Origin: Thunnus maccoyii
Lineage: Eukaryota > Chordata > Actinopteri > Scombriformes > Scombridae
Direction: 5' to 3'
Assembly (NCBI RefSeq): GCF_910596095.1
Contig: NC_056539.1
Coordinates: 25,876,501-25,940,500, forward strand
Length of the DNA stretch: 64,000 bases
In this document: positions 1-24,597 of the stretch, piece by piece
Layout: every line of letters begins with the position of its first letter
Numbering within the stretch: position 1 is the stretch's first letter
The notes under the pieces: model-generated
Databases searched by the model: none
Told to the model about the DNA's origin: nothing
The model's input: only the letters and a program-made list of their open reading frames with translations
Translations under genes and position numbers: made by a program

Positions 1-936
1 TAATTTTCTTATTGCCCAGGTGCAGTCAAAATAATGACTATTACTTTCCTTCTCTACTGCAGAAAAAGGCAGGGCTGCTCCTTATTAAGGGTGTGCCCAA
101 ATACAAATATGTTATTCGGCAAAGCACAAATAGTGTTTTATTTACGAACATTTATTTCGTACAAATATTTTAAAAATGATTTGTTTTCGGGAAGAAAAAA
201 AAAAATTGTTATGTCTATCAGCAGGTCTCAACAAGGGGAGTCACATCCACTTGCTACATGATGCACATTTCCTAATTTGGACATTACTCAATACTCATTT
301 CCAGCAGGCCAAGAAAAATCGTCCTGGTTGAAAAAGCTTTAAACCAGCGTCCTTACTACCTGCTCTATCTGCAGTGGAAATGTTGACATATAAAAACCAT
401 TTTATTTCCTTAAAATCTGGGCACAGTGTAGGAACAAAATTGGGCTTCTATAAATGTTTGTGCTGATTGATCAAAACCGTGTTTTCCCTCTATAACTGGA
501 AGATTGTGCTTTTAAAATTTGAAAAACAATCTCTATGGAGATCTACTGATGGTGTTTTCCATTTATACAACCAGTTAAAACAGAAATATAATACTGCCAA
601 CACCCAGTTCTTCAGATGTTTATGGATTAGAAACACAGCTCAAATTAATCTGGCACAGGTCCCTCACCCAACAGTCAATGTTATTCTGGACACATTCTTA
701 CTACAGACTCATTAATAGGGTGCTGTAACTCAGATAAAATATTTGCAGGTCTCTGTTGTCCTTTGTCATCTGTTATTAAATGCCATGGGGAAGAATATCA
801 GCTCAAACTGGATTATAATAAAGTATATATCATGATTTAAGCCCATTACATTACATGTATCAAAATCAGACAGGGCCCTACAGTATTTAGACTTGCTGTC
901 TACACTTGCCATTTCAAGAATCTGGCACCCAGATAA
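1..936. other. Non-coding, nothing recognised
   Basis: AT-rich sequence with only short random open frames. I see no exon-like segment with flanking splice sites, no RNA gene and no recognisable repeat end. Confidence 0.5.
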
Positions 937-1052
937 AACCATAGACTGTAAAAACAATATGGGCGTAGTCACCGTGACTTCACTCATTGGTTTGTGGACA
1001 TTTTCTTTTAGCTGCTAGCTTGGTTAGCATGGTGCATGTACAGTCTATGGTT
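937..1052. mobile_element. Short inverted-repeat element (MITE-like), 116 bp
   Basis: The two ends are an exact 14-bp inverted repeat, AACCATAGACTGTA at 937-950 and its complement at 1039-1052. The interior (GGGCGTAGTCACCGTGACTTC and following) resembles the start of the repeat at 56433, whose left end differs from this one by a single base. This looks like an internally deleted, non-autonomous copy of that family. It has no coding capacity. Confidence 0.7.
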
Positions 1053-2989: not shown

Positions 2990-3110
2990 TGCATATTCAA
3001 ATTCAAGCACACTTTACTGGCAGGACTAAACACAACGTTGCCAAAGCATTTGTGCTAACAACTGTACAAACAATATAATATATCACAACATAACCGTATT
3101 GAAAAGAAAT
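2990..3110 (-). mobile_element. LINE 3' tail fragment
   Basis: The + strand reads ATTCAAATTCAAGCACACTTTACTGGCAGGACTAAAC in pieces. That is the complement of the usual end of fish non-LTR retrotransposons, where a polyadenylation-like AATAAAG stretch is followed by GAATT-type short repeats. No coding part remains, so this is a 5'-truncated copy. Confidence 0.5.
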
Positions 3111-3129
3111 ACTGGCAGGACTGATGAGT

Positions 3130-3500
3130 CAACCTTAAGGATCAGTTCACCCAAATTGCAAAAAAACATTTTCTCACTTACTTTTAATGGTATTTAGCCA
3201 TGTAGAAAGTTTTATTTACTATGGTTCTGCAATATCTGTCTCTGAGATTGAGATGGAGGCACAAATTTGTTTGTGGTGCTCAGAGCAATGAAAGATTATT
3301 TCAGTAATGTGTCTAAAGACTTTTCAATGAACAGCTTGCATAGGCACTTGCATATTCAGCGAAAAGAATTTCAAAGAAAAACTGCTGGCAGCTTAGTTTG
3401 TAGATTGAGAAAAAAGTATATGTTTGGTTTATCTGAGCCTAAATATAAAATAAAAAAATCTGTCTCTCAGAGAGGACTGTTAGACACCTGACCAAATAGG
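3130..3500. repeat. Probable dispersed fish repeat
   Basis: It begins with AAGGATCAGTTCACCCAAAT, a wording I recognise from many dispersed fish intergenic repeats. I could not see matching ends, so its class (short DNA element or SINE) is undecided. No coding sequence is apparent. Confidence 0.4.
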
Positions 3501-6084
3501 TGTGTTTTTGCAACCTTGTCTCCTAGATATTATGTGTGTTTACCACTAATTTGCAACAGGAAGAGGGTGCCTGCATTATGTTTTCAACATGATGAGGAAA
3601 TGTTGTTGGTTAAGCAAGCTGCAAACTTTTGATACTGAACATATCTGCAAAATGTTTCCTGACAACATATTTAATTTCCCCTCCCCCTACAACATCTGCT
3701 TGTAGCAACTAAAGCATGATTAAAGTTTTTTTATGGTTTTGCTGAGGCACTCATAGCAATTGCTTAAGGTAAGGAAAAGATGACGGTCTCCAGTGTTAAA
3801 ATCCTGGGCCTTGTACTTCTTGGATATAAGGTTATTTTCTTGGTTGTGCTGAAGTTGTTGAACTTATTTTGGAATAGATTTCTCTGCATAATCAAACTAA
3901 ACCCACAGCTTACCATCATCACATGTCATCACATTTCCTCCAAGTGAGTGTGACACTGAAATGATATGGCAGGGTGCGAGCTTCGACATAGGGTATTGGG
4001 CCTGGAACTGCATATCTACACAAATGTTTGCTCTCGCTGTGGAAGGATTTGACTTGACGCTTGAGGAGATTCAGCAGATTTGATAGAAGAGGGAGTTTAA
4101 GCATACTGAGTTTGGTGGGAAATTCATCCTGCCTACCCCCAAGAAGGCAGATGGGGACTAAAAATTAAAACACTTTCCACTGCAACAGAGAGAAAAAGGA
4201 GGGAGGGGGGTCAAGATGTTTAAAGATGTCAAACATCTTATTTTCATAGTAATGTTCAGTAATATTATGAGACCATTTACATGTCAAATACACTGGTTAG
4301 TGTCCTCTTTGTGGAGCCAGTTACTCACATACAAGAGGTACTTTACTTTCTCTGGATGTGACTTTTATCCAGATTAATACCAATTATGCTAATTCTGATT
4401 TTCTACTTGGAAACAGTTGCCAGGGCAGACTCAGTGTATCTCAATCCCAGCTTGGGGTGCAGCTGTATGAAATGATGAAATGTGCTCCGTTGTCATAAAG
4501 ACAGACGACGGCGGCCACAAAGCACATCATGTTGTTCTTCTGATTAAGATGTTTGCTCACAGCAGCACACTCCCAACAAACTATAGCACACAGCTATAAC
4601 AATCAATGATAAGTCATGCTAAGTGAATTAATATGCTTGCTTGCTAAGAACAGGATTTGGACTTGTTAGATCGCACTGATAAAATCCAGTGTTCCGTAGG
4701 CAGGGCTAATCGTTGATTATGTTTTCGTTGCAGAGAAGGCAACACATCTGAAGAGTCTTAAAGCAAGAGATTGTTTTCTGTCTCTTCCTCTTCACTCCAC
4801 ATACTATTTTTCCTTTTTCTGCTCCCCCAGTATTCCAGTCAAATTCCCCCTCTCTCTTTTTTCCCTTGACCATTTGTAGAAGCAGATAAATCAGCTGTGC
4901 ACTTATCCATGTTGTGATTAATAATTTATTTGTTTATATAATATTAAACCATGGGATGCTATAAGGAAACATCACTTATGCATGATGCTTAACCTTTTTA
5001 GCTATGTGTGAATATTTAGGTCTGCAGAAGCCTGAAGTCATATGCTATATATGCTATTGCAGTGTACATGCTTATGATACCACATGTTACAGAAAGGTTT
5101 TTGGTCTATTCTAATAAATAAATCTGATTAAATTATTGAGTGGGTCTACCCTAAATGAAAATAGAAAATAAATGGCACAGACAAAATATTAGGAGCACCT
5201 CTCACTATAACTCAATAAAATCCAACTGCACCACAAACTGCAGCCAACAAAATGTACCATAAAGTTGAATAAACATCTGTCCAACTTTGCATCTTTGCAA
5301 CAAAATCTGAATACTATATCTGTTGAAGAAGATTAAGTTAGGATTTAATGCAAGGCTGTAATATTAGACTGCATTAGTTTATGTAAATTACTGATGACAA
5401 TTTTGTTGTTGTCATATTGTTTTATCGGTAATTACTTGAAGGATTAAAGTAACAATCTTGAAGATCTCTGTTCCATTCTCTTTGGTGACACCTATGGTGA
5501 TAAGCAATGATAATCAGTAATTGCAGGTGTGTTTTTGGACCTCACTTCCCAGGGATCCAAACAGTGTTGCCTGTGTGATGTCAGTCAGTTGGCAGTTGGC
5601 AATGCTAGCAGAGAGCAGAAAAAACAGTATGCTGCTTCACATGCAAGTGAATTGAATATGGAAAATAGGGGGGGGGGGGGGAGATCATTTTTACATTCAC
5701 TGTAACTAAAACTCATTGTGTGTATCCATAAATGTGTGGGATGCACTTCCTTCCTTGCAAAGCAGATATTTTAATAATTTTGAAACCTGCACTGTCCACA
5801 TCCACTGTCCACTGTAGATAAGTCGAATAGTGTGAGACCTTGTGTAAGAATTTTTATGGTGTTACCCACGAGTGTGTGCATGTGCATCCTCATGCCTGTG
5901 CACAAAACAAAACAGGGACCCACTCATAAAAACCTGTTCCACACTGCTACTAGTTGACAAAAACTCCACAGGGTCACTTTGATATAATGGAAGAAAATTT
6001 TTCTTGTCCTCTTCCCAAACCCAGACCTTTAAAAAGGGACCAGACTGTACCGATTCAGGTTTGCTGACACTTTAAGATCCCCAG
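3501..6084. other. Non-coding, nothing recognised apart from a G14 run
   Basis: No exon-like segment, RNA gene or repeat family is recognised. A run of 14 G occurs at 5668-5681. Confidence 0.45.
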
Positions 6085-6372
6085 TTTAAAGGGGCACTTC
6101 ACTGATTTGACGCAAAGTCAGCTGTATAAAAAACTGTTGTATAGTATCATCTGTCACTCTGGAGGAGCTTTGTCGAGTCTGAGAAAATAACACCTAATGA
6201 TGTGATCAGGGTTATCTTAGCTTGGGCTTGTACCACAAATGTTTAACAGAAAGCCTGCTCTTGGTGCTATTGGTTGCATTATGGGAAATGTAGGATCAAG
6301 TGTTTTGGGAGCTTGATCCATACTAGGGACAAATCACTGGAGTTTTATTAAATCAATGGAGTGCTACTTTAA
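6085..6372. mobile_element. Short inverted-repeat element (MITE), 288 bp
   Basis: The left end reads TTTAAAGGGGCACTTCACTG and continues into ATTT. The complement of the right end (TTAAAGTAGCACTCCATTG, then ATTT) matches it with a few changes. The ends are inverted, the interior has no coding capacity, and the wording is typical of small non-autonomous fish DNA transposons. Confidence 0.65.
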
Positions 6373-7916
6373 GATATTGTTAGCCCACTACGTCATGGTT
6401 ATCACGGTTAAAACTTAATTCATCCTAATTTGTAGCTGTTTTGTGAGGGAGTGAGAAGAAGAGGTTGAAAAGCAAGAGTGAGTGAGAGAAAAAGAATGAC
6501 TCAGAGGTAGAAGAAAGAGATAGGAGGGAGACAAACACAGAGGGAGAGAGGGACAGAGACAAATAGAGAGAGATGTGATTAAATGTCTCAGAGCCAGGAG
6601 GGTATATCCATTTCACTTGTCACCAGACAGTCACTTGGTTCCAGCCAATGAGAAACCAACACATGCTAATTGCCAGTTAGGGAGCCTGTCAGTCATCTGG
6701 AAATGCTGCCTGAACCTAATTTGCATAATTTCCCATATATCCTGCCAGCCGGCACTGGATAACACTCACGGCCAAAGTGGAGGTTGAGTTTTTGTTGTCA
6801 CATTTGACTTCATTGGACAGCGATTACTCTGCCATCCCAATTTCCCCCCGTTTGAAATATTCTCATCTTCCTGTGTCTATGTGCCTTGTTTGCATTTGTG
6901 CCTGCATGAGTGAATATGCATGTGTGTGTGCGTGTGTGTGTGTCAGTGTGTGTCAAAGTGTATACACCCCAGTGACTAGTGGCTGGTAATTGAGAGGAGG
7001 GGGCTAATAACAATGGTGTCAGACAGGCCTGAGTGGACTCCATTATTAGTGGCTTGTTACACTGGCTAAATGCAAAAGACACTCACTCATACACATCCTA
7101 TGCTATGTTGTTGTTGTGGAAAATGCTAGTGAAGGAAAGATGAATGGAGAACAGTGAGGAAACAGAAGCGGAAGTGAACAAGTGAGCGAGTTGATTCTGG
7201 GCAGGTGTGTGTGTGTGTGTGTGTGTGTGCTGTTAAACATGTCTTACTTTGTGTGTGACTGTGTACAGTTGTATATGTTTGAATGATGAGCCTGCTGTCG
7301 TCAGAGTGCGTGGGAGGTGCTTGCAGATGCAAATGTGCCCTATGCCATTTTTTTTATTTGACAACCGCAACAAAAGCATCTATCCTCATAGCTCCCTGTC
7401 TGTCTATCAAATAATGTCACCTCATTCTTCCCTTGTGACCTCCAAACTGCAAAATCATTGTCACCCCCACCATAACAAATGTTCATTTAGATGTACAACA
7501 ATGGTTTACTGTGATGGGTGCACCCTCCCTACATGAAGTAGAATGAACCAATCTAAATCTAAATGGACTTGGGGGATGAGAAAGAGCCATAAGCCCATTC
7601 ATTGCTAACTGTTCAGATGAAGATTTTTGTCTCTCCCTTCAGGCCTCCAGTGAAATTAGCATTTAAAACTGCTACACACACAAACAGTACACACATAAAG
7701 AAGTGAAAGTCACTGCGCCGACTTTCTAAATTTAGAAAATGAGCAGTACTATCCATAACCTTTTCACGTTTAAGTTATTGTGTTACTTCTTGGTCACAAG
7801 CAGCATCTACAGCAATCAAGGCTGATATGATGATTTATAATTGAGTAATTAAAATTTTTGACAGGAAGCTGATAAGATCACACAACTGCAATGTTCTTAA
7901 GAAATTTAATATGTTA
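6373..7916. other. Non-coding with purine tract and GT microsatellites
   Basis: Holds a GA-rich tract (about 6437-6575) and GT repeats (about 6918-6950 and 7205-7229). Open frames here arise from these simple repeats. No gene is seen. Confidence 0.5.
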
Positions 7917-8245
7917 AGTTTTTATCATTTTATTAAATTTGCTCATCTTAAACTCATCTATAAATGCTTAAACAACCAGGCTCCTATGATGCTCAGTGAC
8001 TTGGTGGTACCTCTCAGTGTGTCGGTGGCTCGGTAACACGAGGTGCATGTACTGTGAATGGTCAGGTGCCTGTCCGTAACTCCTCACTTGGACAGAAGGC
8101 TTTTTCTGTTCAGGGGATCAAGATTTGGAGCTCCTTATCTGCAGAACTCAAAATAGACCATGACCTTTTTAAACTCAAATGGAAACAGCTTTTAAAACAG
8201 GATCAGTCATATAGTCATGGTGATCTGGTGCTTGTCAATTTATGA
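7917..8245 (+). mobile_element. LINE (non-LTR retrotransposon) C-terminal fragment
   Basis: Translation gives the end of a reverse-transcriptase polyprotein: a block around LIYKCLNNQAPMMLSDLVVP, then LGQKAFSVQGIKIWSSL. This corresponds to the 'YKCLNNLAPxYLSDL ... GDRAFSxxAPRLWNSLP' segment found after the RT domain in CR1/L2/Rex-type elements. The first half is in a different frame from the second, so it carries at least one frameshift. No RT catalytic motif is present. The copy is a 5'-truncated, dead remnant. Confidence 0.65.
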
Positions 8246-10269
8246 TACTTTTATTGTATCATTGTTTGTAAAATGATTGTTTTGTGCTGATTTGTATGTG
8301 TTGTTGAGTCTTGTACTTTGATGTATGTATATGTACTGTTGAGTTTGTATTCTGTGCACTTCCATGTGCACTTTATTGTGGAGTTCTGTGTATTTTAAAG
8401 GCCTATTTAGGAATGGGCAAACTAGCTTTGGCTATAAATCCTGTGGTGTGTGGCATTAGTTCATACTATATTCTTGTCCCTTTACAAATAATCATAAAAT
8501 TAACAAATAAATACCCATAATTATTTACTTTTAGCTTATGTTTTTATACCAAACAATTAGATTGGACCTTTTATCACAGCATGGTTCAGCATGGCTACTG
8601 GCCTGACAACGGTGGTCCCAGCTGTTATGGCCCAGATACATTTTCTGGCAGTGCTGTAACCAGTCAAACATGTCTTCCCAAATGTAATTTGAGTACATAC
8701 AGTCATAAAAAATGTGGCCAGTGGTTTCAATATTGTCTTTACAAAAAGAGTATAATGTTCAATATTTTTCCTAAGAAGCTAATTTGTCATTTAACATTTT
8801 GAAATATGTCTCTTTAAAACAGATATACTCAGTGCACCATGTCTTAACAAGAGATCGGTGCCTAGAGTAGGGAGGCAGATGGTTACGCCTCTTACCCTTT
8901 GAAACATGATAATATATTTAGCTATGCGTTGGTTTCATTGTGCTGTGTTCTTGTACTCCGACAGTAGTGAGCCTCACCTTAATGCTCGCAATCCTGCCAA
9001 CCACTTCCTGCACCTACAGAGCCGAACGGTAAACACCCAAAGCAGTTATAGACATCAAAAGCTACTGTAAACAGGAGATAAGGTATAAACACTTTTGGGG
9101 CTTAGGGCTGACACGGTGATGATATTACCCCTCCTCTGATGTCACAGGTGTCTCGCTGTCGAGAGCAGCAAGTTTAAGTTACTGGAGCAGAGTTGATATT
9201 TCTGCTGTGATCCAGTTTATTGGCAGAGAAAATGCTTGAAATAGTTTGTTTCCAGCATAGCCACGTATTGGTTAAATAAACCCTGACAGACCGTATCATT
9301 GAGAGACATAGACTGGTCATATATGTGGTTTACTTTTTAATGGCATTTAAGTTTTTTACACTTTTAAATATATCTGCTGTCCGATAAAATCAACAACAAC
9401 AACAACAACAAAATAACTAATTATGGTTTATTACTCATTTTTGTTGCAGGCTATCGATTTGTCTGACACTGTTATACTGTATCTGAATTTGATTTGGCAT
9501 GTGTTCATATTTCATTCTGACCAACCTCTCACCATCACGATTATAATAATTATAATAAATAATTATGCACTCTATCAGTCAGGTGAAACAGACAGAGTGG
9601 GAGAAACTCACTCTCAACTGTTTGCCACAAAAAACAGTATTGATATGTTAAATATAACAATAAAACTAGACTGAAGGCAACTACTCCTGTAATATACGAG
9701 TGACAGCACGCTGGTAATAAATATCCCAGGGGATATCACATCTCAAAGTAAGAGAGTCAGGACTTTGTCTCATAGATCACAGTTGGAGGCAATCTCACGC
9801 TCGGCATTGAAATAATAGCTTTCTGGAAAACAACTCATTTTTCTTTCTTTCTCCAGTAACTTAACTTTAAAAAAATTGGTCTGTGTTTGACTGTTACAGA
9901 CTTTCACTAGTGTATTCTGTGAGCGATCTGACTTTGTTTGCGTGTATGCATGTGTGTGTGTGTGTTAGATCATGCCTGCGGGGGTGCTGTGTTGAACATG
10001 ACCTGCTGATGAACTGGAAAATGAGTCACCCTCTACAAACATGCAGGCCGGCACCCAGAGTCAGAGATGTCTTTGCAACTAGCATGATTTAGTCTTTTAT
10101 GCATGCAAACCATCTGTCTGTCTTCCCTCATGGCAACAAATAACCAAATATCTTTTCAAAATTTGCAAAAATATGACATGTTATGTAAAAAGTACATTTG
10201 AATCTTAACATGTAAATTTAAAAAAAAAATCCAGGATAATGTCATATTGCTACAATGTAATAACCCTTT
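8246..10269. other. Non-coding with an AAC microsatellite
   Basis: An (AAC)n tract lies at about 9389-9411. Otherwise there are no recognisable genes, RNA genes or repeat ends. Confidence 0.45.
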
Positions 10270-10335
10270 TTTTTTCAGCGCTATGTGTTGGGAGCTGCGC
10301 AACATTGACAATAAAGCTGATTCTTCTGATTCCTC
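10270..10335 (+). mobile_element. LINE-like 3' end
   Basis: The phrase TTGACAATAAAGCTGATTC followed by TTCTGATTCC is the typical terminus of several fish non-LTR elements: an AATAAAG signal followed by short GATTCT-type repeats. Only the tail is present. Confidence 0.4.
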
Positions 10336-10469
10336 TTCTAGATCAAAATATGTTACAATGCTTTTAAGTTGAAGGTTTTACACCAATTTGGAATTGCATT
10401 GCCATTCAGTTTGCAGACTTGTGAGAGACAGATTTTTGTGCAGCAATGGACAAGATATCCTGATTTTTA

Positions 10470-11065
10470 GTCTCAGTGGGTCACACTGGGTCCTACACTT
10501 CTCAAGGTCTTCACATGCTGAAGTGGCCCAATCCTATTTTTTTGCCTCCAAGTGACTCAGATCATACTTTTTCACAGTTGTGTGAACAACCAAATCAGAT
10601 TTTATCAGATATGGGCCACTTGCATATGTGGTCCTAGATCTGATTCATCCTGATCTTTGGCTATGCGACCGCTGTCATATATTGCGCATTCTGTGTTGGC
10701 AAATTACAGCCTGGTAAAAATAAACATGGAGAGCAACAGCAGTGAGGGGGGGCAATGGAGAGATGAAGAAGTTTCAAATTTATTGGACATTTATAGGGAA
10801 GCTTCTATTCAAGCCAAACTGGGAGGAACTTATTGTAACCAAGCATTTAAAAATTGTACTCTTAAAATTGTTAAAGTTGTATGCATATGGCTCGCATTTC
10901 TGTAAAATCTGTGTGTGCATGGCATTTTAGGAGCTCAGTGGTGTTCACACCAGAGCCAGATACAACTTACAAACATGAATGTGAACCATCGACACAAAAA
11001 GATTAGATCTGACGAAAAAAAATCTGAATTTAGCATCAAGGCCTGTCATGTGAACACAACCCATA
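10470..11065 (+). mobile_element. Harbinger-like element remnant with Myb/trihelix-type protein start
   Basis: An ATG at 10725 opens a frame reading MESNSSEGGQWRDEEVSNLL and on to about residue 44 (10725-10856). This has the W-x-D-E-E-V-x-x-L-L pattern of the Myb_DNA-bind_4/trihelix protein that PIF/Harbinger transposons encode beside their nuclease. After 10856 the frame reads into unrelated sequence, so the domain is cut off. Flanking non-coding stretches (about 10545-10640 with AAATCAGATTTTATC, and 10995-11065 with AGATCTGACG and TGTGAACACA) resemble the ends of short dispersed fish elements. It is a dead copy. A domesticated MADF-like exon is the alternative but is less likely, because no splice donor follows. 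Confidence 0.5.
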
Positions 11066-11758
11066 TGGCGTCTCTTTGTCCCCACGTGGGAAAAGCCCAT
11101 CTCATAAATATGCTCTCATAAAAATCCCAAGCCCAGATAACCTCATCTCATCACTATGGTTATTTTTTGTAATGAGAGTACAGAGAACTCAGTAAACTGA
11201 TCTTGATGTGTAAAATTGGGGGAATTTCCCATTAATGTGATAATTTTACACTAACTCAATTAACAATATCTAATAGTGTACATTCTCAATCTGATTAGAG
11301 GGATATATATAATGACTTTTCACTAGTTATTACACCAGCAGCTACAATATTAACATGGTTTTATCCTTATTCTTTCACCCAGCTTCTCTACTTTCTCTCT
11401 TTCCCAACCTCCATGTATCTTTTTTTACCTTTTTTCCTTCCTCTCCCCATCCATTCATGCTAATAACTCTACCCTCCATCCTTCACCATATCATTCCTAT
11501 CTTGTTGTTCCCTCCCCCTCCAAGTCTTTCTAATGGTATTTATGAGTTGCTGCAGTTCTTGTCTTCCATATTTCAGCAGCTCCAACTTGTCCAAGTTATT
11601 AGCAAGCCATTAAAGCCCCTTTCCCGAGCAATTCAACCACCAGCCTCAGCCTCAAACCCCTTCATCTCTCCATTCTTATCATTTTCTGTCCCTCTGGATT
11701 AACCCTACTCTGCTACTATTTCAGTTTTATAGCTCTTGCCTTATTTTCATTGCCTTTT

Positions 11759-11795
<37 letters not shown>

Positions 11796-12069
11796 TTAAA
11801 GATGAGACAGAGAGCCCGCAATGGGATCAAGACTCAAATATCGGTTGATCCAATCTCATTGTTGAGGCAACATTAGCACATAAATACTTTATAATATACA
11901 CATGTACATTCTCAGCTTTTTGCACACAAACACATTATATTAAATTTGACAAAACAATATCACATCATAGACTGTACTGTACTTGACAACTAAGAGTTAC
12001 ATGGACAAATAAACATTACCTTTGTGTCCTCTGGCCCCTTCGTCTTGACAATGAAGGACCTTGCTTTAC
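11066..12069. other. Non-coding with pyrimidine tract and T30 run
   Basis: Pyrimidine-rich sequence (11360-11700) produces a 115-codon frame of low complexity that I do not believe. A run of 30 T lies at 11763-11792. Confidence 0.5.
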
Positions 12070-12743
12070 TTTAAAGGGGACATATCACACTTTTTGTGTT
12101 TTTCTGTTATTTATATACTGTTATGATGTCGGGTGCCTATGTTAAACATGGTCAAGGTTCCAATACTTGAGGTGAACATATGTAAAAATGCTCCCTGAAA
12201 GTCAAAAGCCAGGGCTTCAGCCTGCTCTGAACGCTTTGTTTGCAATGTCACCTCAACTTCCTCTTCATGATGACATCAGATTGTTCGTGCATGTCCACAA
12301 ACGGTCGTCTGTTCCACAGCCTTTCTTGCTGGAATTGGTTCCGTGAATTGTTTGCATTGTCCACTCAAATATTTCGGATTGGATTTGAGGTCGAACACGA
12401 ACGGATGTATTTGAGAAGGTTCCATTTAGAGTAAAGAACAAGAAAAATAAGTGAAATCTGACTACTACTGTTTGTTTATGTAGCCTCCTATGCCGCTGGG
12501 AGTCTGCCGAGGAGTAGGCTTTTGGGAGCTGGCCAATCAGAACAGAGTGGGCTCATTGGGAGGGACGCCTTTAAGAGACAGGAGCTAAAATGGCCTGTTT
12601 CAGATAGAGGCTGAACTGAGGGGCTTCATAAAGGGCCTGTATAAGATAAATGAGGAGTTTTTTTGAACTGTAAATCACCCAAAGATATTCCAGTAGAGCC
12701 CGAAAATATAAATATGGACCTGGAAATCTGCATGATACGTTTA
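12070..12743. mobile_element. Non-autonomous DNA element, family A, copy 1
   Basis: It starts TTAAAGGGGACATATCACAC and runs to GGAAATCTGCATGATACG. Both ends look like decayed versions of the TTAAAGGGGACCTATTATGC-type inverted end. The interior shares phrases with the copy at 25325-26070 (CCAGGGCTTCAGCCTGCTCTG here against CCTGGCTTCAGACTGCTCTG there, and GAACAGAGTGGGCTCATTGGGAGGG against GAACAGAGTGAGCTCATCGGGAGGG). No coding capacity is seen. Confidence 0.6.
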
Positions 12744-14503
12744 TAGTAACGGTGACTTTAAACAGTCATTACTATGCATGTTAATGGATTACACTCCTGC
12801 ACGCGTACATGTAAACTGACATAACCTGTCACTAATAATAGCCAGCCATGTTTCTCCTGATGAGTGGCCCACCCCTCCTACTGTGCCCCTGATAAAATAA
12901 GCCACATCTATCAACTATAATATCTCCTTCAACAGAGGTGTAAAACTTTATTTAAATGCTAATGTCTGTTTGACAGATTAGCAGACGTACACAGGTGCTA
13001 TATATTCTCTACTGTTTGAATTGGCTCACAGCAGGAATATTTCACTCAGGAAGGATTCACTCTACAGCAGTGTGTGATGATATATTCATGCTTGTGGGAG
13101 CATTCAATTTAATTCATCCTGTCTTCAAGGAGGTCAGATGTCACGTTCATCTACATAACTGCAGGGATTCAGTGTCTAAACTGGTTCACAGCCTACATTC
13201 GAGTCTGTTATCTACATAAATGCACTCACATGGCTGCATCATCACTTAATTATCAAAAGTCAAATGTGTGAGCCAAGATTTTTGCCAAATTATTCTGTTT
13301 TTTTTTTTATGAATCTGGTGATGAATCTGTTTCTCCTGGATTAAATAACAGATGGGAGGAATAGCCCTATGGCATTTATGTGCACTGTAGACAAATCTGG
13401 GTTGTAGGCAGAAGTAGACAAGCTGCCATTACTGTGGTGGCACTTCATTTAACCCATATACATACAACATTTTGTTTTTGCACTGTACACATAATCACGT
13501 AGCCTCTTGTTGGCAATACACATATTGTGTATAAAACATTGCTTTTTCTGCTCAAACTTAGCTTGTACAGTATGCGTCCGCTTGGATCTGAAAGTTCAGT
13601 TCAGCTAATCTCTTTGGCCCCTCCCAAACCGTGATGTAATGGGTCATTTTCCTATATCAGCTGCCGCACCAAGTGTAAATAGCAGAAAACTGGCTAACTG
13701 CAGGCTCTCACACACAGCTACCTGATAAATGAAGGTGGACAGACAATGTACATCAACGGGTGCTTTATTCCTCTTGTGTGACAGTAAGCACATCACAAAA
13801 ACTCTCTCAAATGGCATTAAATTTGCCTCTAGCGACTGTCAAAGCTCCACTGGACTCCCTGTCTTTCCAGCGTAGACACATAAGGTCTGACAGTAGCTCC
13901 TTAGCTGAGGTGTAACTACCAGCTCTGTATCACAATTACTGCTATACTCACTACACTTATTACCAATTTTCATTATATGATGCATTTCTTCTTATTATAA
14001 GATTACAAGAAATCACAGAGTATAATGATTTAAATCATAAGTGAGTTTAATCAGCTACTCCACACCTCATCCAGACTGTGGAGGTTGGACTGTTCCACTC
14101 TGCCAATGGAGTAATTGCAGCAATGCTTGTGCAACACATAAATCAGATGCTGGATTTGTCTTTAGACATCCTAATGTGGTTGAATTGGTTGCTGCAAAAT
14201 ATAAAATTCTTAATCTAAAGTATCAAAAACTGATGAGAAATAAAAAGCGTTTGATCTCAACTATGACTTCAGCATTCACTTTCAAGGCAGTTTAAATCTT
14301 GAAAGATCGATAAAGCTCACTTCAGCTACTTCAAACATTTTGAAATCATGATGAAATTATTATTTTTTGTTTCATTTGCCAGAATCTGGATCATCCCACA
14401 TTATCTCACACTTACCAAGTCTGAGCTCTGGAGATTTTGATGCCTTTAAACTAGGATCTATCAAAGGCTCACAGCTGCCTGTGTATCCAAGCCAAGTACC
14501 CCT
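12744..14503. other. Non-coding, nothing recognised
   Basis: No exon-like frame, RNA gene or repeat end is recognised. Confidence 0.45.
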
Positions 14504-14675
14504 GGGGCCTGTACTACGAACAGAGATTAGTAGGTTAGCCAGCTATCTTTGGGCTTAACTCAGGTTTTCCGGTATCACAAAGTTGGCTCACTTTTAACTG
14601 GGATAAATCACCATGGCAACTTATGCTGAACAGCTAACTCCAGAGCAGGTTAACTTCAGAGGATTGGATCACAAC
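14504..14675 (+). repeat. GGGCCTGTACTACGAA-type dispersed repeat, copy 1
   Basis: Begins GGGGCCTGTACTACGAA and contains GTTTTCCGGTATCACAAAG and ATGGCAACTTATGCTGAAC. The reverse complement of 24598-24750 begins GGGGCCTGTGCTACAAAGC and shares the same order of motifs, so the window holds two copies in opposite orientation. A Harbinger-like non-autonomous element is likely but not proven. Confidence 0.55.
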
Positions 14676-16480
14676 GGGCCTTTTCCAAAGCTGACCCTCC
14701 CCACTCCGACTTCGTCATGGAGTGCACTCTGTTTGCAGTCACACTCACAGCTGAATGAAGTTCCCTTCACTGAGGTGTAGGGTATAAATTCACCGGCAAG
14801 TTTTGGGATGAACTTCACTCTCTCTGGTGGAAACAGAAACTGTCATAACTTTTTGTCACCATAGTTTCCAGTCAGCATCTGTCGGGATCATATAGATATT
14901 TATATACTATAATCTTTATATACAGTCAATGGCTGGGAGCAGCAATGATTGCCATCATCCACCAGCTGTTGCAAAATGAGAGAAGGAGATCTTCCAGAAG
15001 GTGTAGACTTTTTTTTGTAACTTTTTATTATTAAAAATACATTTCTTGGGTATAGACTACTGTACACTCCTTGCATAGTGATCCTCTAGTACAAGTAGAG
15101 ATGAGTCATTTTTCAGACATGCCACTGAAAATACTGATTTTTTACAGACCACTTGTTATGCTGCAGTTCAAAAAAGTTTTCCTTCTAGCTTCACTATTCA
15201 CATTGAATATCCTGGGTTATATTGTCATTTGCTAAATTTCCCATGTAATAAGCAATATACAGTAACACTGTATTTATCATTCATTTGTGTACAAACATTA
15301 ATGTATGTTTCCCCCCTGAAACAATAAATGTGTTTTTACCTTTTCCTTTACAAGTTTGTGGTCAGAGGTATAGTTAGCTCATGCCACTAACTGGGGTATA
15401 ACAACCAGAGACTGTGAACATCCTTGTCTCTGAAGATATGAAGGATACACAAAGGGACTGTCAAACTTTTTTCACATTTATTTAATTTCCATTGGAAATA
15501 AATTAAACAACTTACAGAAGTCCCTGTCCAGACCAGTTATGTATATATAAAAACATGACACTACTTTTATATTGGTAGTCCACAACCCCCACCCCCCACC
15601 CACCCAAAAATGTAATTAATTAATTAATTAATTAAATTAAATATAACATTCACAATAAAAACAACTCACATCTTTTCCACCATTTTTTTTTCAAATGAGG
15701 ACAGAAGTTTCTTGGTTTGTTTAGTAATTTGCTCCTTGCATTGTTTTTAGGTTCTCCCATTTTCTTCGTGGCTTATTTGGGTGATACAACACACTCAAGG
15801 TCCAATTCCTTAATAATGAACCTGTTAATCAATATGTCAGAGAGGACAGTGAAGAAAATGTTTAGGTCAGAAACATCATCTCTTATACACAACACCAATA
15901 ATAGCCTACATAAGTAACAGTGTGGGCAGCGAGGTGGCAGACTCATTGCATTCACTCCACAGTAGGCCTAAGCCCATGAAAAAAAAAAATTAATATATTA
16001 ATACTAAAATTACACCCAGGCCTCTTTGTTTTGCATTCTTATGTTTATAAGCTGCTTGGTTTTAGCAAGTATCCGTGTAAATATACACGGATTACACAGA
16101 AAATAACACTTTACAATCAAATGAACATGTCAACCATTTTCTAGACTAGAGAATGGTATATTTGATCCTAAATACAATGTAACCTTTTAGTTTTTAACAT
16201 CCGCGGGGCAGTATTAAATGTCTGTTAGTTTGAGCAGTTTACGAGTAAATGTTTGTACAGGTATTCACACAGAACTTAACATGATGAACACAGTAGGTGT
16301 TGCATAAGCTCAGTAAGTCAGAATTGATGCAGGTTCGCTGTTGAAAGGTTTTATAACCCACTTCCACTCCCCACTAATTGGTTTGGGATGGTACTTAATA
16401 TGGCGGACCCTCCACATGAACATGTAAACGAAGTAGAAGTGGGTAGGGAGAGGGTGTAGGGGCTACTTTGGAAAAGGCCC
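14676..16480. mobile_element. 1.8 kb DNA element with 15-bp perfect inverted ends
   Basis: GGGCCTTTTCCAAAG at 14676-14690 is exactly complementary to 16466-16480. The trinucleotide AAC lies directly outside both ends (14673-14675 and 16481-16483), as a 3-bp target duplication would. Beyond the 15 bp the ends diverge but stay loosely similar (C-rich, CCCTCCCC against CCCCTACACCC). The interior has no convincing transposase. It includes a C-rich tract and a TAAT repeat (about 15585-15640). It looks like a non-autonomous element, with a 3-bp duplication typical of PIF/Harbinger. Confidence 0.6.
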
Positions 16481-16944
16481 AACCTGTCAACACCCTGACT
16501 ACTGACCAATCAGATCACTGGAAAAAAAAGAGTCATCATTCCTACAGGATCCTGACATGGACAAAATTTCTGGGTTTACAATAAAGTGACTAGTAAAAAA
16601 GAGCAATATATATTTTTATAGGTCAGTAGAAACACTTTATTGTTCCAGGCTTTCTATTTCCACTCTGGTTTTAAAACATAGCTGCATTTTAATTGTGCAA
16701 AGTTGATTTTATCTCTGGAGTGATTGCTGACAGCGTGGATGATTTTACACTCTGATTCCATCACTGCAGCTCGGAATAACATAAGACAACTGTGTGATGA
16801 TAACTGGAAATAAAAACAAAAGATTGTCTTTTATTAGAAAAATAATCCACACGCTGTTAATTGGCTCCCATGGTTATAAATTCAACATTTGGGTCAGATA
16901 AACCTCATCAGTCGTTAACTACTTTTCCACTCTTTGCTTCAGTA
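16481..16944. other. Non-coding, nothing recognised
   Basis: Spacer between two DNA elements. No exon or repeat is recognised. Confidence 0.4.
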
Positions 16945-17443
16945 CACTGTAAAAAAAAAACTGTTGTTTTTACAGGAAAACGCTGGCAGCTGTGGTTACC
17001 AGAGAATTCCTGTAAAAAATACAGCAGCACAGTAGACAACTTTACAGACGAAATATGTAAATTGATTTACAGTGAATGAAATCACGGCTGAATCACATTA
17101 AAAAACTGTTAAGTCTACAATTTTTTTTTTGTTAATTTCACATAACGGTGTTGTATATAAATAGACCATTTCCTGTATTTTTTACATGTAATAACTGCTA
17201 ATTGTGCATCAATAAATGATAAAATTAACAGGGAAATATCAAACAAAAACTAATTTAAACCGGTAGAACAACAGTAAAACTCTGCATTTTAAATGGAATG
17301 GTTCTGTATATTATATATAAAATCTCTTCAAAATATGCTGTGTTTTTATGTTTTAATAATCAAGTTATAATGTAAAATTTACGTATAAACCTGCAAAAAT
17401 ACATCTTGAGAAAAGACGAGAGAAAAATATCACTTTTGGGAAA

Positions 17444-17449
17444 TTTATT
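17444..17449 (-). other. Polyadenylation signal AATAAA for the SAM-domain gene
   Basis: AATAAA on the minus strand about 500 nt after the stop codon of the SAM-domain gene and inside the transposon. It is the first canonical hexamer I found downstream. Confidence 0.4.
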
Positions 17450-17943
17450 TAACAGCAATAATAGTTGTAAACAACTGGATGCATTTTTTTCAACAGATAC
17501 AACATGCAAAGAAGCTACATATAATGGTTCTTGAACTATGACTGAATCCAAGTTGAGATACTCCAGAAGATTAGCCTCTTTAAATCTGGACATTTTTAAC
17601 AAACTTTAACAAACAAAGTTTAAGTGTCAGGCACACAACAACAACCCAATTCAATCAAAATTTTGTTTACATTCTGAATGTTCCACAGTATGGCATAAAA
17701 CTTATCTATCTCCATGGAGACAATCACGTGATGCCAACAGGCCAAGTTACAGGTCAGATCTGTGGAGAGGCGTACCCCCTCAAAATAAGAATGCACGTTT
17801 GTTAAGGTATTTTTGCAAAATAACAAAAATTACGTTGTGCCTTAATTACCATAATACACATTGTGGATTGAACAAAGCGAAAAGTAACAGTACCTCTTCT
17901 CAAACAAACAGTCAGAGTGCACAGAAGGAGTCCATATTTAGGC

Positions 17944-20411
17944 TTAACGCCACTCGTGATCGGAGAGGTCCTGGATCAGGGTGAGGACTCGAGGGTTCAG
18001 ATTGAGACGACGCTTCGAGTTTTTATTCTCCACCTTAGTTCCTTTTTCTGGGTTTATCGAGAAAAAACACCTGTAGAATAAAAGCATATTAAGCATTTTA
18101 ATTGATCAGTTAAAAAAAAAAACTTCATGTGTTCTTAACTTATTTACTTCGTGGATGTTTTTAAAGCCAAAACGTGGCTTGTTCCCATGAACTGCTATAA
18201 AAATAGTATATTTTGATATTTTTTTCTACTTTAAACATGTCACTCTTTTAGAGTCTGAAATATACATATCAAATATTAATTATATTTTTAGCTTTTTAAC
18301 CCTTTCAATGCCAGTATGTTTACATAACTCTACATAATGCTGTTTTTATACAAAAAAAACTAAATAATTTCCATTAAATGCATTTAGTGAGTACACATAC
18401 ACAACATTATCCGACATCAATAGCACACACACTTTTCTTCCAGAAAACAATAAAAAGTGTGAAACTTTGCGGCATGCTTTGAATGGGTAAAAGTGGTGCC
18501 ACCTGATGGACAAATATAAAAACTACAAATTGAAAGCCTGTGGTCCAAACCGAAATCTTAACATAAAGGAATGCATTAGTTTTTGTCAAGATAAACGTGG
18601 GATCAAAAATAGTGGTTTTAATGGGTTTCAATGGGGCAGTTTTTGGCCCTAGGAACTATTAAGGCAGTTTTTGTGTAGCTTAGCCATTTTAGGCTTAATT
18701 AAAGTACAGGTCTGAGAAATGCCATGCCATGTTTACTCACCTTTGAAGAAACTCCAGAGTTGAAGCCAGCTCAGATGGATAATGGATGTTGAAACAGAAG
18801 TAGCTCCCGAACATGAGGCACAATGCAGAAATGAAGGAGGAGATGTTTGTGTTGATGAGGTTCCGATCCAGACTCAGCATGTACCTTGTTGAGGAATAGC
18901 AGGACTGTCCTATGAACAAATTATTTAACAGGTTATATTAATAAGCGCTGCACTCACATGACAGATTCTATAAACAGTGCAATTAAAAAAAAGAGATATG
19001 AAACAGACTTACCACAGACAATAACAGCAGGTGTCAGAGGCACTTGCTCCAGTTGGACCTCTTCTGCCAGACAGGTATCTTCTACATGGAAGAACATGGA
19101 CTCCTCCTTCTCATCAAAGTAGCTGAGCAGAAGCAGGACCATCTCTTTCACATCATCTGAGCAGCCACTCTGCTGTCCCCGCATCCTCTGAAGCCTTGCA
19201 TAAGTCTGAAGGAACTTATTACTCTTGGTGACATAAACTGTGGTCATGTAGTTGAGAAGCCTTTTTCCCTTCAAATCCAAATTTCGCGTGAATGTCTCTT
19301 TGAGGTCAATCCCAGTGAGTTCCTTGAAGTGGACCGACATGCCAAGTTCGTCAAACCAAAATGGCCACTCCTCTCGAAGGCTTTTGATACTTTTTCCCTG
19401 GTTGACATGTTGACGCTGTGTGTAAAAAGTGGACTTCATTAGACATTTTACCTCCTCTGGATTGGCATCAGATTGTTGGAACATCTCCTTGAGTTTTTCC
19501 TTCTTTTGGTGCTGGCTCTCTTGAGTTTCTTCACGGGGCAGAAATTTCACATTCCATTTAATGCATCCGTAAGTGTCCTGCATTGCTGCTCTCTCTTCTA
19601 ATGGGATCTCATCTGTGTGGTCTGAGTCATCAGCCTGATGTTTTCTTTTTCTTATTTTGGGTGTTGAAGTGCGCCTCACATTTTCGATTCTGTTTTGCAG
19701 CTGTTTTACAAGGGAATGGTAGCCTGTTCCAACAATATCGCCCTCTATTACATCTTGCAGAGAATTGGGATATTTTGCCACCATTTGCTTTGCAACATCA
19801 GTTGAATGCTTTTTACCTACATGGGGGCATTTTTCCATCATCTCAGTCACAACAATCCGGACCATTTGCCTCCTCAGTTTTGGGCCTGGCCTTTTTCCCC
19901 TCTCCAAAGAATCCATCACTTCCTCAGGAAATTTACTCCATGGAATTTCAAAGTTGTCTTCCCACTGTGTGTCAAGTCCTAGGCTGCTGGAGGAGGTTGA
20001 CGATGAACTTTGGGGTGAAACAGAGAGCGATGACAGCAGTTGGGTAGGTGAGGCTTCCACAGATGATAGTGAGCTGTTCTCGGGAGTTTGGTCTTTAAAT
20101 GACAAAAAAATAAGATTATGATTCACATTGTACAATATTACACAATGTCCATGTCTGCTTTTGCTGTTGAATAGCTGTGTGTTGTGGTGTTTTTACTTAC
20201 ATTTCTGTTTCCAAACAGAAAGAAGCTTTCTGGCTTGTACAGGTCTTAATACTGTCATCAAATCAGCCTCCGTTACGAAGCGTAGATCATCATACGTCTC
20301 GACTCCAATGGACTGCAAGTGCTCTTCCAGGATGTTTTTGTTTACTACTTGAAGTTCTGGTAGGGCTTCCATGATGGCGACATCTAGGAAGGTTCGCCCT
20401 GAGTCACTCAT
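17944..20411 (-). CDS. SAM-domain (SAMD3-like) protein, second gene of the CACTA element
   Basis: Four coding exons on the minus strand: 20411-20201, 20092-19013, 18909-18741 and 18070-17944. They total 1587 nt (528 residues). Every junction has GT/AG ends (donors GTAAGT, GTAAGT, GTGAGT) and phases that join cleanly. Residues about 24-70 resemble a SAM domain (NILEEHLQSIGVETYDDL, then LRPVQARKLLSVWKQ). Next come a Ser-rich linker, a basic stretch (KIRKRKHQ) and a long helical region. The C-terminus carries the block shared by fish SAMD3-like proteins (FGSYFCFNIHYPSELASTLE, then INPEKGTK and a final DHEWR). The biochemical role is unknown. By position it corresponds to the accessory protein of plant CACTA elements (TnpA), which binds subterminal repeats. 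That role is inference. An independent host SAMD3 paralog trapped in the element is the alternative. The start is set by an acceptor 7 nt before the ATG. Confidence 0.8.
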
Positions 20412-20430
20412 ATTTACACTGAAGAAGAAA
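20412..20430 (-). promoter_or_regulatory. 3' splice site just before the SAM-domain gene ATG
   Basis: On the minus strand a pyrimidine-rich tract ending TTTCTTCTTCAG is followed by T and then GTAAAT before the ATG at 20411. The acceptor AG is at 20420-20419. A strong acceptor this close to the start implies an upstream non-coding exon, and only about 130 bp separate it from the end of the transposase gene. Confidence 0.6.
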
Positions 20431-20541
20431 TGCAGAACAGAAAAAATATACAGTACATACACTTAACAGAACAGGGACATGCATCAGGTAACACTTATAT
20501 TAATGTCAAACTAACAGTCCAATTAACAGCTTTAATTGGAC

Positions 20542-20547
20542 TTTATT
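20542..20547 (-). other. AATAAA overlapping the transposase stop codon
   Basis: The minus strand reads GCA AAA TAA AGT at the end of the transposase frame. The hexamer AATAAA therefore contains the stop codon. If used, the transcript would have a very short 3' UTR and would end before the downstream gene. Confidence 0.45.
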
Positions 20548-23191
20548 TTGCCACAATACTGTGTTTTAGTGGAATGACTTGGAATCCATTAAGAATATAT
20601 GATACCAAAGGATAGAAATCAGGCAGGTCATTAATGTTGATACATTGTAACCCAAGACTGTCCTTTGTCACAGAATACAGATGGTATTCTGAGAGGAAGA
20701 TGCCTTTGTGGATATCCATCAAAACATACACAGATGTGTCATTTTGAATCAAGATGAGTAGAAGTTCACCAAACTCCATATACTCATCATTTCTGTACAC
20801 AAGAAACTGTCCTTTTTTATATGCAGTGCCCTTGTACTGAATATCTGTGGCAACTGTGGTATTGCTTTCTGAAAAGGCTAACTCCCTGACTGCATGTTTA
20901 ATAGCGTCACTGTAGAGGTTGGGATAAAACGCACAGCTGTCCTTCACTTGCAGTAGTTTACTGCATTCTTGCCCAGCTAAAAGATATGCCTGATACATCT
21001 GATGACGCTCTGACAATGTTTGACAAATATTTTTGAAGTTTTTCAAGTGTCTGGCACATCTTTTAAAATAACTGTGTTTACTTTCAAACCTAAGCGTCCA
21101 TAATCTCCTCAATGGACCAAATTTCAACGACAGTGCTGAATAATGGCGCAAATAGTGGTGCTTGGGTTTGAGTTGAATTTCAGGAAACATCATCTTTCTC
21201 AACTCCAAATATTCTTGGATCAAAATGTCAAGATATGCTATCTGGGACAAGGAAATGTTCTGAGCACAAATAAGATCCACAATGTCTTTTAGCTGGAGAG
21301 CTAACTGCCATACTTCATCCTCATGATTTTGCACTTTGTCACCAATCAAAACTGGTAGCAATCTCAGAAGGTTCCAGTTTTGAATGGCTTGCCCTGATAA
21401 CTTGGCTCCGTCAGGTTTGACAGCACATGGCTTTGTGAGTGCTTCAGATCCTTTGTACTTAAACTGTTTGATGCGCCTGTTTAAGAGTGAGTATGTGAAC
21501 CATTTTTTCATTTTTATAATGTTCTTCAAGTACAGTGCTAGATCATATGACAAGACTCCTTCAAAGAGGTCATGACCTAAACAAGGCGGGAGACCAGGTT
21601 GGGATACGTGAAAAGACTCAAGGGTATTAAAGATAGAGTTTACCTTTATTCCTCTGACGTCTTGGATGTTTTCAGCCTGGAGATCAGCAACAGCTGTGTC
21701 ATACGTCTCTGGGGTGCGTGGAGGACCACAGGCATTTGGATCAGCCTCAAACTCACTTCTCGTGATGTCACAGTACCTGCAAAAATATTGAGAGCGGCTG
21801 AAGTTCTCTGTAAACCCACCTATGCAATGAGAACCAAGGTTATCCCCAGCAATGCAGTAGAGACCCCCTTTTACTGTTTTTCCATCTACATTTATTCCAT
21901 CTGTCTCCAAGGATTTCAGATCTGCCAACAACTCTGAGAAAACTTTGGCTATTCCAAAACGCTTTAAGTCATTCTCAACACACAACAAGACTAAAAACAT
22001 ATTATCAGTATTTGAACGCAAATGAATGGGTAAATTTGCTAATGAAAGATAAACTGCAAGAACTTTGTGTGTCTTTTTAGCAGAACCCAGGGGATTCACA
22101 ATTTCAAATGAATCTTGATACAAAATCAGTTTGAGGCTTTCAGGGTTTTCATTAAAGAACTGGTGACATTTGAAAATTTTTCCATCATATAAATCCGTAA
22201 AAACCTCTACATCAGGATCTCCAAACTGTTGTGGCTGTGCATTCCTCCATAACTGGGAGTGCAAAAAGCTCTTCAGAGTTTCTGCCACTGGTATGTAGTA
22301 CGCAAATTTTTGTGTCATGTTTTCATCCATTCCCAATAGCACTTTTTGGGGTTCCGTGTACTTAAACATTTTTGTGAATGTCTGATTTCTGGTGTATGTT
22401 GTTCTTAATTGTCCCTGATGACAGGCAGAGAACAAATCTGACTCTTTAATGCAGTCACATATTTTAGTGACTGCTTCATCTGATAGGCTCATATCATTTT
22501 TTAATAAAGAACTTACTTTAGTTATTGTGTAGGCTTGACCTAACTCGTGCACATTTTGCATCTCCTCAACAATAGTCTGTATAGTAGAGGCAGGAATAAG
22601 CAGCTGTCCTTGCAGTTTAAGGTAAAAGAGACACATGTTTCTGAGATAAGACTGACTATCATTCTCTGGCATATCACTGGCTGCACTAGCTGTTGGCATG
22701 GCTTCATGTGTGCTTTCTGAATCATCTGTACTGGCAATGACATTTGGGGGCTGAAGGCGAGTTTCCTTGTACATGTCATCAATACCATCAGGGGAGCATG
22801 CTTTATGCTTCCTACACATGTGAGAAGTAAATGATGACTTTTTTGTAAACACATGCTTACAACCACTTACTGGACATGACACAGACCTGCCCTCTCCAAA
22901 ATGATCATTTAAGTGAGACACTAGCTCTTTCACCGTGTGTAAATTGCGGGCACATAATGAAACTGCGCATTTTAAATCCGCAACAACAGCTTTAGGAGCA
23001 GCTTGCGGTGCAGGTGCATTGTGCACACGATAAAAATGGCCCTTGAAAGCTGAGTAAGTGGTAAATGTTTGACTACAGTTGGCGCCAGCACATTTGAAAA
23101 GACAATGAGGCTCATTCCTATGTACTCTGCAATGCAGTACATAGCCTCTTAATGTAACAAATTTGCTTTTACAAAAGACGCAGGTGATCAT
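20543..23191 (-). CDS. CACTA (TNP2-like) transposase with four N-terminal C2H2 zinc fingers
   Basis: One uninterrupted 882-residue frame. Residues 1-130 hold four C2H2 fingers (C4/C7/H20/H24; C34/C39/H52/H57; C75/C80/H93/H97; C106/C111/H124/H129). The core follows the layout of plant En/Spm TNP2 proteins. YQDSFEIVNPLG (D360) matches the first catalytic Asp block. IAGDNLGSHCIGGF (D450) followed by FCRYC matches the second block and its Cys pair. LGHDLFEGV (D541/E544) matches the third acidic block. KPKHHYLRHY and FGPLRRLWTLRFESKHSYFK (about 676-710) match the conserved DUF4218-like end of the transposase. It probably cuts and rejoins the CACTG ends in the nucleus. Assignment of the catalytic acids is by motif order, not alignment. 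The ATG is the first in frame and begins directly at the first finger. The next gene lies downstream on the same strand. No frameshift or stop is present. Confidence 0.85.
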   Translation of the reverse strand: MITCVFCKSKFVTLRGYVLHCRVHRNEPHCLFKCAGANCSQTFTTYSAFKGHFYRVHNAPAPQAAPKAVVADLKCAVSLCARNLHTVKELVSHLNDHFGEGRSVSCPVSGCKHVFTKKSSFTSHMCRKHKACSPDGIDDMYKETRLQPPNVIASTDDSESTHEAMPTASAASDMPENDSQSYLRNMCLFYLKLQGQLLIPASTIQTIVEEMQNVHELGQAYTITKVSSLLKNDMSLSDEAVTKICDCIKESDLFSACHQGQLRTTYTRNQTFTKMFKYTEPQKVLLGMDENMTQKFAYYIPVAETLKSFLHSQLWRNAQPQQFGDPDVEVFTDLYDGKIFKCHQFFNENPESLKLILYQDSFEIVNPLGSAKKTHKVLAVYLSLANLPIHLRSNTDNMFLVLLCVENDLKRFGIAKVFSELLADLKSLETDGINVDGKTVKGGLYCIAGDNLGSHCIGGFTENFSRSQYFCRYCDITRSEFEADPNACGPPRTPETYDTAVADLQAENIQDVRGIKVNSIFNTLESFHVSQPGLPPCLGHDLFEGVLSYDLALYLKNIIKMKKWFTYSLLNRRIKQFKYKGSEALTKPCAVKPDGAKLSGQAIQNWNLLRLLPVLIGDKVQNHEDEVWQLALQLKDIVDLICAQNISLSQIAYLDILIQEYLELRKMMFPEIQLKPKHHYLRHYSALSLKFGPLRRLWTLRFESKHSYFKRCARHLKNFKNICQTLSERHQMYQAYLLAGQECSKLLQVKDSCAFYPNLYSDAIKHAVRELAFSESNTTVATDIQYKGTAYKKGQFLVYRNDEYMEFGELLLILIQNDTSVYVLMDIHKGIFLSEYHLYSVTKDSLGLQCININDLPDFYPLVSYILNGFQVIPLKHSIVAK

Positions 23192-23348
23192 TTTTAGGAT
23201 TTCAAATGTTTGCCTGTGCTTTTCAGCTGAATTAAGTTATCACACATTGAGCTAACGTTACTGGTCTTAAATATGGACTGGTGCTAGCTAGCTAGCTTTC
23301 AGCACACATTTTCGTCTGGTCTCGAAAAAAGAGTAGCCTAAATATGAA

Positions 23349-23600
23349 GCTTACCTTCCAATTGAACAGCCACAGACCCTCCAAAAAACTTGTAGATTTG
23401 TCCTAAAATCTTTTAAAATGAAGTGGTCCGAAGATTTCTGCTCCGTTCTCTGCTCTGCAGACTGCACACTGGCTCCTTAGTGACGCTAACGGCTAATGGT
23501 TCGCGCTTCTCCCGCCCTCACGTCATTATCCAATCAGAGACGAACTTCAGCTGCGCACTTTTAAATTTCAAAATTAGGAGGACTCAGTGCACAATGAGAG
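23349..23600 (-). promoter_or_regulatory. Likely promoter and leader exon of the CACTA element
   Basis: A GC-richer island in AT-rich surroundings. Minus-strand features are a CRE/ATF-like TGACGTGA (complement at about 23518-23525), a CCAAT box on the opposite strand (CCAATCAG, about 23530-23537), and then transcribed sequence ending in a good donor, AAG/GTAAGC, with the GT at 23354-23353. Acceptor-like sites (ATTCAG, AGCACAG) lie just before the transposase ATG, so a non-coding first exon is likely. Promoter elements are inferred from motif resemblance only. Confidence 0.45.
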
Positions 23601-24269
23601 AGTAAAAGTACAAGTGGTTAGAGGTGGCACTGTTAGGTTGTTTAGCCTGTGAAAATGATAATGATAAAGACTAAAAGAAACATAAAGCATACAAGGATTA
23701 GGACTGAACAGTGTTACTTTGCATATATCAATAATTTGAATGTCTTATACACACACTCTACAATATGCTACAAATAGCCTAAATTATAAATGCAATGTTA
23801 TTAAAATTGTATATTTTTTATATTTAAATAGATAGGTAACCTCTCAGGTTCACAATAAAACTTTTTTGTGAAAACATTTTAAATAGGCCTACGTCAATTT
23901 GCATCATTTTATCAATCATGTTAAAATTACAGCATAAACTTGTAAAGTGACTTACATATATTTGTATTTTTTAAAACAACTGACTAAAACTATAGTTTTT
24001 ACAATATTTGCATGTGAAATTAACTAAATTGTTTTGTTATGAGTATTACAGTATTTCTCTGTTTTTGTTACCAATATTTGTAGTTTTAACAAATAAATTT
24101 GATTGTAATCACATATTGTTGTTGTAAATATAACAAAAACATTCTGTTTAATAGTTTCCAAAAATTCACTGTACTTTAAACAAAAAATATATGTTTTTGA
24201 GTTTACAATACTTTTCTGTAGGGATTTTACATAGTTTTTATGTAAATTTCACAGTCATTTTTTACAGTG

Positions 24270-24597
24270 TAGCAGAAATAGTCTGACATTACTTTTAAGT
24301 TTTTTTTGTGTGCTTGACATATTTAGAATGGTTTCTTCATCATCCAACTAAATAGCAAAAAATACTCACATTATACTTAAGTCATAAATAATAATAATAG
24401 CTACATGTATTTTAAGCCTTAGCCTACTTTTAATATGTAGACATTATTTCTTTTTATTCTGTTGTATGATTTCAGGCTATCATTTACACGAGTTTTTCCG
24501 CAGGTACTGTTTCATCTCATATCATGAAGTACTTCATTCATGGTTCTGATGATGTTGCTTGTAATTAACAACCCCGCCTCTTTCACATGAACGCGCT
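24270..24597. other. Non-coding, nothing recognised
   Basis: AT-rich spacer after the CACTA element. Confidence 0.4.

Follow-up and report, generated by a model that had tools for sequence, protein, structure and literature searches.

A 64,000-nucleotide stretch of the Thunnus maccoyii genome (contig NC_056539.1, positions 25,876,501 to 25,940,500, forward strand; here, the window) contains at positions 16945-24269 a 7,325-bp element that is likely to be a cut-and-paste DNA transposon of the animal CACTA/EnSpm (CMC) type, active in the recent past and probably autonomous. Eighteen full-length copies, the window copy included, are spread over 12 contigs of the 782-Mb genome, each carrying two open genes, a transposase and a downstream partner. 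Features of the window copy (window coordinates) are given below.

16943..16944: left target-site duplication, TA (flanking dinucleotides equal in 18 of 18 copies)
16945..24269: full element, 7,325 bp, containing two minus-strand genes
16945..16956, plus strand: left terminal inverted repeat, CACTGTAAAAAA (end comparison, copy alignment)
16945..17194: left subterminal region with TTTACA/TGTAAA repeats (6-mer counts against Markov simulations)
17944..18070, minus strand: partner exon 4, stop at 17944-17946 (splice model)
18741..18909, minus strand: partner exon 3 (splice model; separate homology block in relatives)
19013..20092, minus strand: partner exon 2, conserved core, residues ~72-431 (splice model, homology in relatives)
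20201..20411, minus strand: partner exon 1, predicted SAM-like domain, residues 1-70
20543..23191, minus strand: transposase, 882 amino acids (aa), open in 18 of 18 copies
21083..22114, minus strand: putative catalytic signature D360, D450, C471-x2-C474, H679-x3-H683, E703 (alignment with a second family, below)
22802..23191, minus strand: N-terminal C2H2-type zinc fingers, residues 1-130 (conserved C/H pairs, profile matches to zinc-finger structures)
24020..24269: right subterminal region with TTTACA/TGTAAA repeats (6-mer counts against Markov simulations)
24258..24269, minus strand: right terminal inverted repeat (end comparison, copy alignment)
24270..24271: right target-site duplication, TA (copy alignment)

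Ends, copies and age

The sequence CACTGTAAAAAA stands at 16945 and its exact complement ends at 24269, a perfect repeat of 14 nt when the flanking TA is counted. In the window, the element supplies the sole perfect CACT..AGTG pair of 12 bp that is flanked by equal dinucleotides and spaced 3-12 kb, and a comparable pair occurred in none of 60 Markov-shuffled windows. The left 456 bp and right 460 bp were used as queries against the species' own genome (21 candidates per end search, all scored; repeat counts in general are lower bounds). Each end gave 21 matches, 18 near 100% identical and three of 65-80%, and the left-end and right-end matches fell in the same 18 units, every one with both genes. 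An earlier sequence-only reading of the window had claimed undamaged inverted ends and named several near-identical, same-ended copies as support; 18 were obtained in all, each with CACTGT..ACAGTG termini, and the 17 others, retrieved whole and compared with the window copy, start and stop at its own first and last bases instead of running on past 16945 or 24269. Mutual similarity among the joined flanks of the copies was looked for and none was found.

Matching 2-bp duplications flank all 18 copies (14 TA, 3 CA, and 1 TG), an equality expected by chance at about 7% per copy; because CA and TG duplications occur, the TA is duplicated target and not element sequence. At one insertion (L021, right flank), the TA adjoins a different repeated element at its CACTGTAAAAAAA end, which matches at least 30 places; at another (L024, right flank, C3:2136291), a many-copy repeat of 94-97% identity starts ~30-50 bases from the insertion.

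Nine of the 17 other copies equal the window copy over 7,325 bp, so that 10 of the 18 are mutually identical, and the remaining eight each differ from it by one substitution or one 1-bp insertion or deletion: two carry a substitution each, one a 1-bp insertion in the left A run, and five (L021-L025) a common 1-bp deletion in a T run. All three CA duplications lie within this last group (P=0.012, post hoc), which may be chance or may mark a subgroup with a separate history. Both genes are open throughout, with a Leu-to-Pro change in the transposase of one copy (L010). Identity this extreme might be expected of segmental duplication or an assembly artefact, but it stops at the same two bases in dissimilar flanks, with each copy inside its own 2-bp duplication, and we consider such an origin extremely improbable.

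Two substitutions in 131,846 bp correspond to 1.5e-5 per site (95%, 1.8e-6 to 5.5e-5), that is, to a mean age of ~1,500-5,000 generations at assumed rates of 1e-8 to 3e-9 per site and generation and a 95% range over these rates of ~200-18,000 generations; the mutation rates are assumed, and homogenising assembly errors could contribute to the low divergence. The family appears to have expanded in the very recent past, and its movement may be continuing. The recent insertion proposed from the window alone is thus borne out by near-identical full-length copies, matching duplications, and open genes, and the possible autonomy proposed with it holds as a possibility on intact open genes, precise ends, and the same 18 copies. 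The copies could instead be intact but already silenced, the family no longer moving, as signs of PIWI-interacting RNA silencing in the gonads for likely active cichlid CMC-EnSpm families might suggest (PMC11753138). With a mean age of only a few thousand generations, though youth is no proof of continuing movement, we judge silencing unlikely.

The two 250-bp ends jointly hold 12 occurrences of TTTACA/TGTAAA, versus 13 in the interior 6.8 kb, and no 6-mer of at least three different letters reached 12 in 1,000 Markov simulations. The 7-mer TTTACAG is weaker: when the best of all 7-mers is the yardstick, 2% of 400 simulations match its count. TTTTACAG is weaker than TTTACAG (10% of simulations). 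Subterminal repeat arrays are the place of TNPA binding in maize (PMC2613891).

The transposase and its partner

The transposase frame, 23191-20543, encodes 882 aa without an inner stop in all 18 copies, as the sequence-only reading had it for the window copy. D360, D450, C471-x2-C474, H679-x3-H683, and E703 are all identical in the transposase of a second, 32% identical family, where the zinc-finger C/H pairs are also kept; our assignment of D360, D450, and E703 as the catalytic acidic residues is putative, and profile matches to zinc-finger structures were obtained for the N-terminus. Pfam Transposase_21 (tnp2) matched residues 341-435 with E=0.027 and 14.1 bits, under the cut-off of 28.6, so membership in CACTA/EnSpm rests on the ends, the catalytic signature, and the architecture; the Pfam search gave no tnp2 match for the second-family transposase.

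The partner is modelled as 528 aa in four exons with three GT..AG introns (phases 1, 1, and 2), and the predicted introns lie close to the residues at which its similarity to relatives is interrupted. The intact four-exon gene read from the window proved open in 18 of 18 copies, its predicted introns having compatible phases. A Pfam match was not found for the partner, with no domain above the curated cut-off; its N-terminus is predicted to be SAM-like.

Relatives in the same genome

Fifty-one of 312 transposase match candidates were scored, the non-identical ones being grouped into 26 loci, and a partner was called where a partner match lay on the same strand, at most 8 kb downstream of the transposase. 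Six loci had a SAM-type partner (C2 twice, C10, C12, C15, and C18; transposase pieces 42-74% identical to that of the element), seven had a partner with a PB1-type N-terminus (C1, C3, C4 twice, C6, C12, and C22; transposases 29-33% identical), none had both, and for 13 none was found. Of the SAM-type loci lying outside the 18 copies, 12 of 18 were without an adjoining scored transposase, as were 36 of the 43 PB1-type loci; because most transposase candidates were unscored, this cannot be taken as absence.

The scored transposase matches fall into the 18 copies at 100% and then protein pieces of at most 74%. This gap, with nothing scored in between, and searches with either end or either protein in which no partial, truncated, or internally deleted copies of the 18-copy family were seen, speak for recent horizontal transfer followed by a burst, as opposed to descent from old resident relatives. 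Broken related two-gene families are nevertheless resident alongside the element, and the ends of some are 65-80% alike; the burst could therefore have begun from a single resident copy that survived. We regard transfer as plausible but not as the favoured origin.

The second CACTG-ended two-gene family measures ~8.7 kb (L026 and L028, on C4 and C22), and its ends, CACTGTAAAACC..GGTTTTACAGTG with TA on both sides, are common to these two compared copies. Its 904-aa transposase frames lie at C4, C22, C6, and C18; the main exon of its partner is open on C4 and C22, and on C6 it contains a stop and is divided between two frames. On C18 (L040), an internal deletion took most of the partner and left the C-terminal exon, with the transposase frame open. 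The second-family partner core matched that of the element by blastp with E=7e-6 (279 aa, 22% identity) and by hhalign with E=2.7e-4 at a probability of only 41%, and the C-terminus with E=8.5e-8, all in one-against-one comparisons. Its N-terminus matched Pfam PB1 with E=5e-4, and that of a relative with 51% identity did so with E=0.003; neither match reached the 23.6-bit cut-off, and each spanned roughly half of the model. The partner core thus seems to be kept between the families while the N-terminal module differs, an exchange of SAM for PB1 of which no description was found in the literature searched.

Alignments picked by protein similarity showed that five retrieved relatives differ from the element, over both genes, at 38-59% of third and 14-26% of second codon positions. 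For the transposase, the differences from L027 (which has no partner match) were 21, 14, and 45% at positions 1, 2, and 3 over 617 codons; for the partner, those from L030 were 25, 20, and 49% over 419 codons. The simplest reading, subject to that choice of alignments, is long protein-level selection on both genes. This bears on whether the partner is a passenger or repressor, dispensable for transposition, as the failure to find it at 13 of 26 related loci, including C18 with its open transposase frame, and its lack of a domain above the curated cut-off could indicate. Partnerless deleted copies are, however, expected of non-autonomous derivatives; moreover, the partner, wherever found, is always downstream on the same strand and conserved at the protein level, and the second family retains a homologous one despite 32% transposase identity. 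We find dispensability rather improbable.

Three further loci, L031 (C11), C1:25530480-25532024, and C3:3599196-3600962, are old related elements that keep a single recognisable end and parts of the genes, apparently internally deleted derivatives of the relatives. Elsewhere in the window, positions 54615-55193 (minus strand) hold a reverse transcriptase fragment (Pfam RVT_1, E=2.1e-13), probably from a broken retroelement.

Classification and possible mechanism

The CMC group is described as having C(2)C and H(3-4)H motifs, CA..TG ends, and 2-5 bp duplications (PMC12730594). The element has 5'-CA..TG-3' termini and a 2-bp duplication in 18 of 18 copies and, as a sequence pattern, a DDE triad in which C(2)C and H(3)H fall between the second D and the E, as well as the CAC..GTG terminal inverted repeats and subterminal repeat array of CACTA/EnSpm. 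The fifth base is G (CACTG) in all 18 copies, so we file it as an animal CMC-EnSpm-type element and not as strict CACTA. The sequence-only reading, which took CACTG termini to define CACTA/EnSpm, therefore stands for a CACTA-like element by ends, signature, and architecture, refined in that the core is not strictly CACTA and the duplication is 2 bp, as against 3 bp in plant elements. A plant-type (En/Spm) assignment was set aside on the 2-bp duplications.

Nearest in kind are two elements in the pantera paper, a Danio rerio CMC-EnSpm with 3 full copies, two full proteins, and a 13-bp terminal inverted repeat, CACTCAAAAAAAT, and a two-protein CMC-EnSpm of Trachurus trachurus, whose alternate haplotype holds 6 full copies (PMC11202377). 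Like these, the present element is large, CACT-ended, and two-protein, with few full-length young copies in a fish host; unlike them, it has 18 full copies, 10 identical, and its terminal repeat is CACTGTAAAAAA, not the Danio rerio sequence. Two-protein fish CMC-EnSpm elements are therefore already published (PMC11202377), and the 18-copy family itself appears to be new, though it may be catalogued in Repbase or Dfam. SmTRC1 of Schistosoma mansoni and the animal TRC elements are also CACTA-group elements in animals with 2-bp duplications, but SmTRC1 termini begin CCC and its 2-bp repeat was reported for 7 of 14 copies; multiple spliced transcripts are reported from one element there (PMC1636069). 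The element also resembles the CMCT clade (Kojima 2025: ESTA, fungal EnSpm) in CA..TG ends and motifs, ESTA having TA duplications, whereas the TET/JBP genes of fungal families and the 3-bp duplications of EnSpm differ from the predicted SAM-like partner and 2 bp found here (PMC12730594). With plant En/Spm (TNPD plus TNPA), it shares a transposase with a second protein, CACT ends, and subterminal repeats, although a soybean CACTA element has a 3-bp duplication (PMC2613891). The partner is likened to TNPA by element layout. In plants, a single transcription unit yields both TNPA and TNPD by splicing, whereas the partner here is a separate downstream gene.

We infer that the transposase would bind the element ends through its zinc fingers and cut at CACTG..CAGTG; insertion would be at TA or a different pyrimidine-purine step, with a stagger of 2 bp. 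The partner may act like plant TNPA, the precedent for a second protein (PMC2613891), its core binding the subterminal TTTACA repeats and its SAM-like N-terminal domain joining partner copies, so that both ends would enter one complex; regulation of the element may be a further role. For the TNPA-like role taken alone, we put the chances at slightly short of even. More speculatively, and improbably on present evidence, the accessory protein of animal CACTA elements would consist of a conserved core with an exchangeable self-association module (SAM-like or PB1-like by clade). Its polymerisation on the subterminal TTTACA repeats would pair the ends in a filament-like synapsis, in contrast to other cut-and-paste transposons. 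Head-to-tail polymers are known for both the SAM and the PB1 fold type.

CACTA-type elements that are very young, intact, and multi-copy in an animal are good material for testing movement and the need for the partner. The near-absence of differences among the copies allows one to ask, via polymorphic insertions, whether the family moves now, and the exchange of SAM and PB1 modules on a common core offers a concrete hypothesis for what the partner may do.
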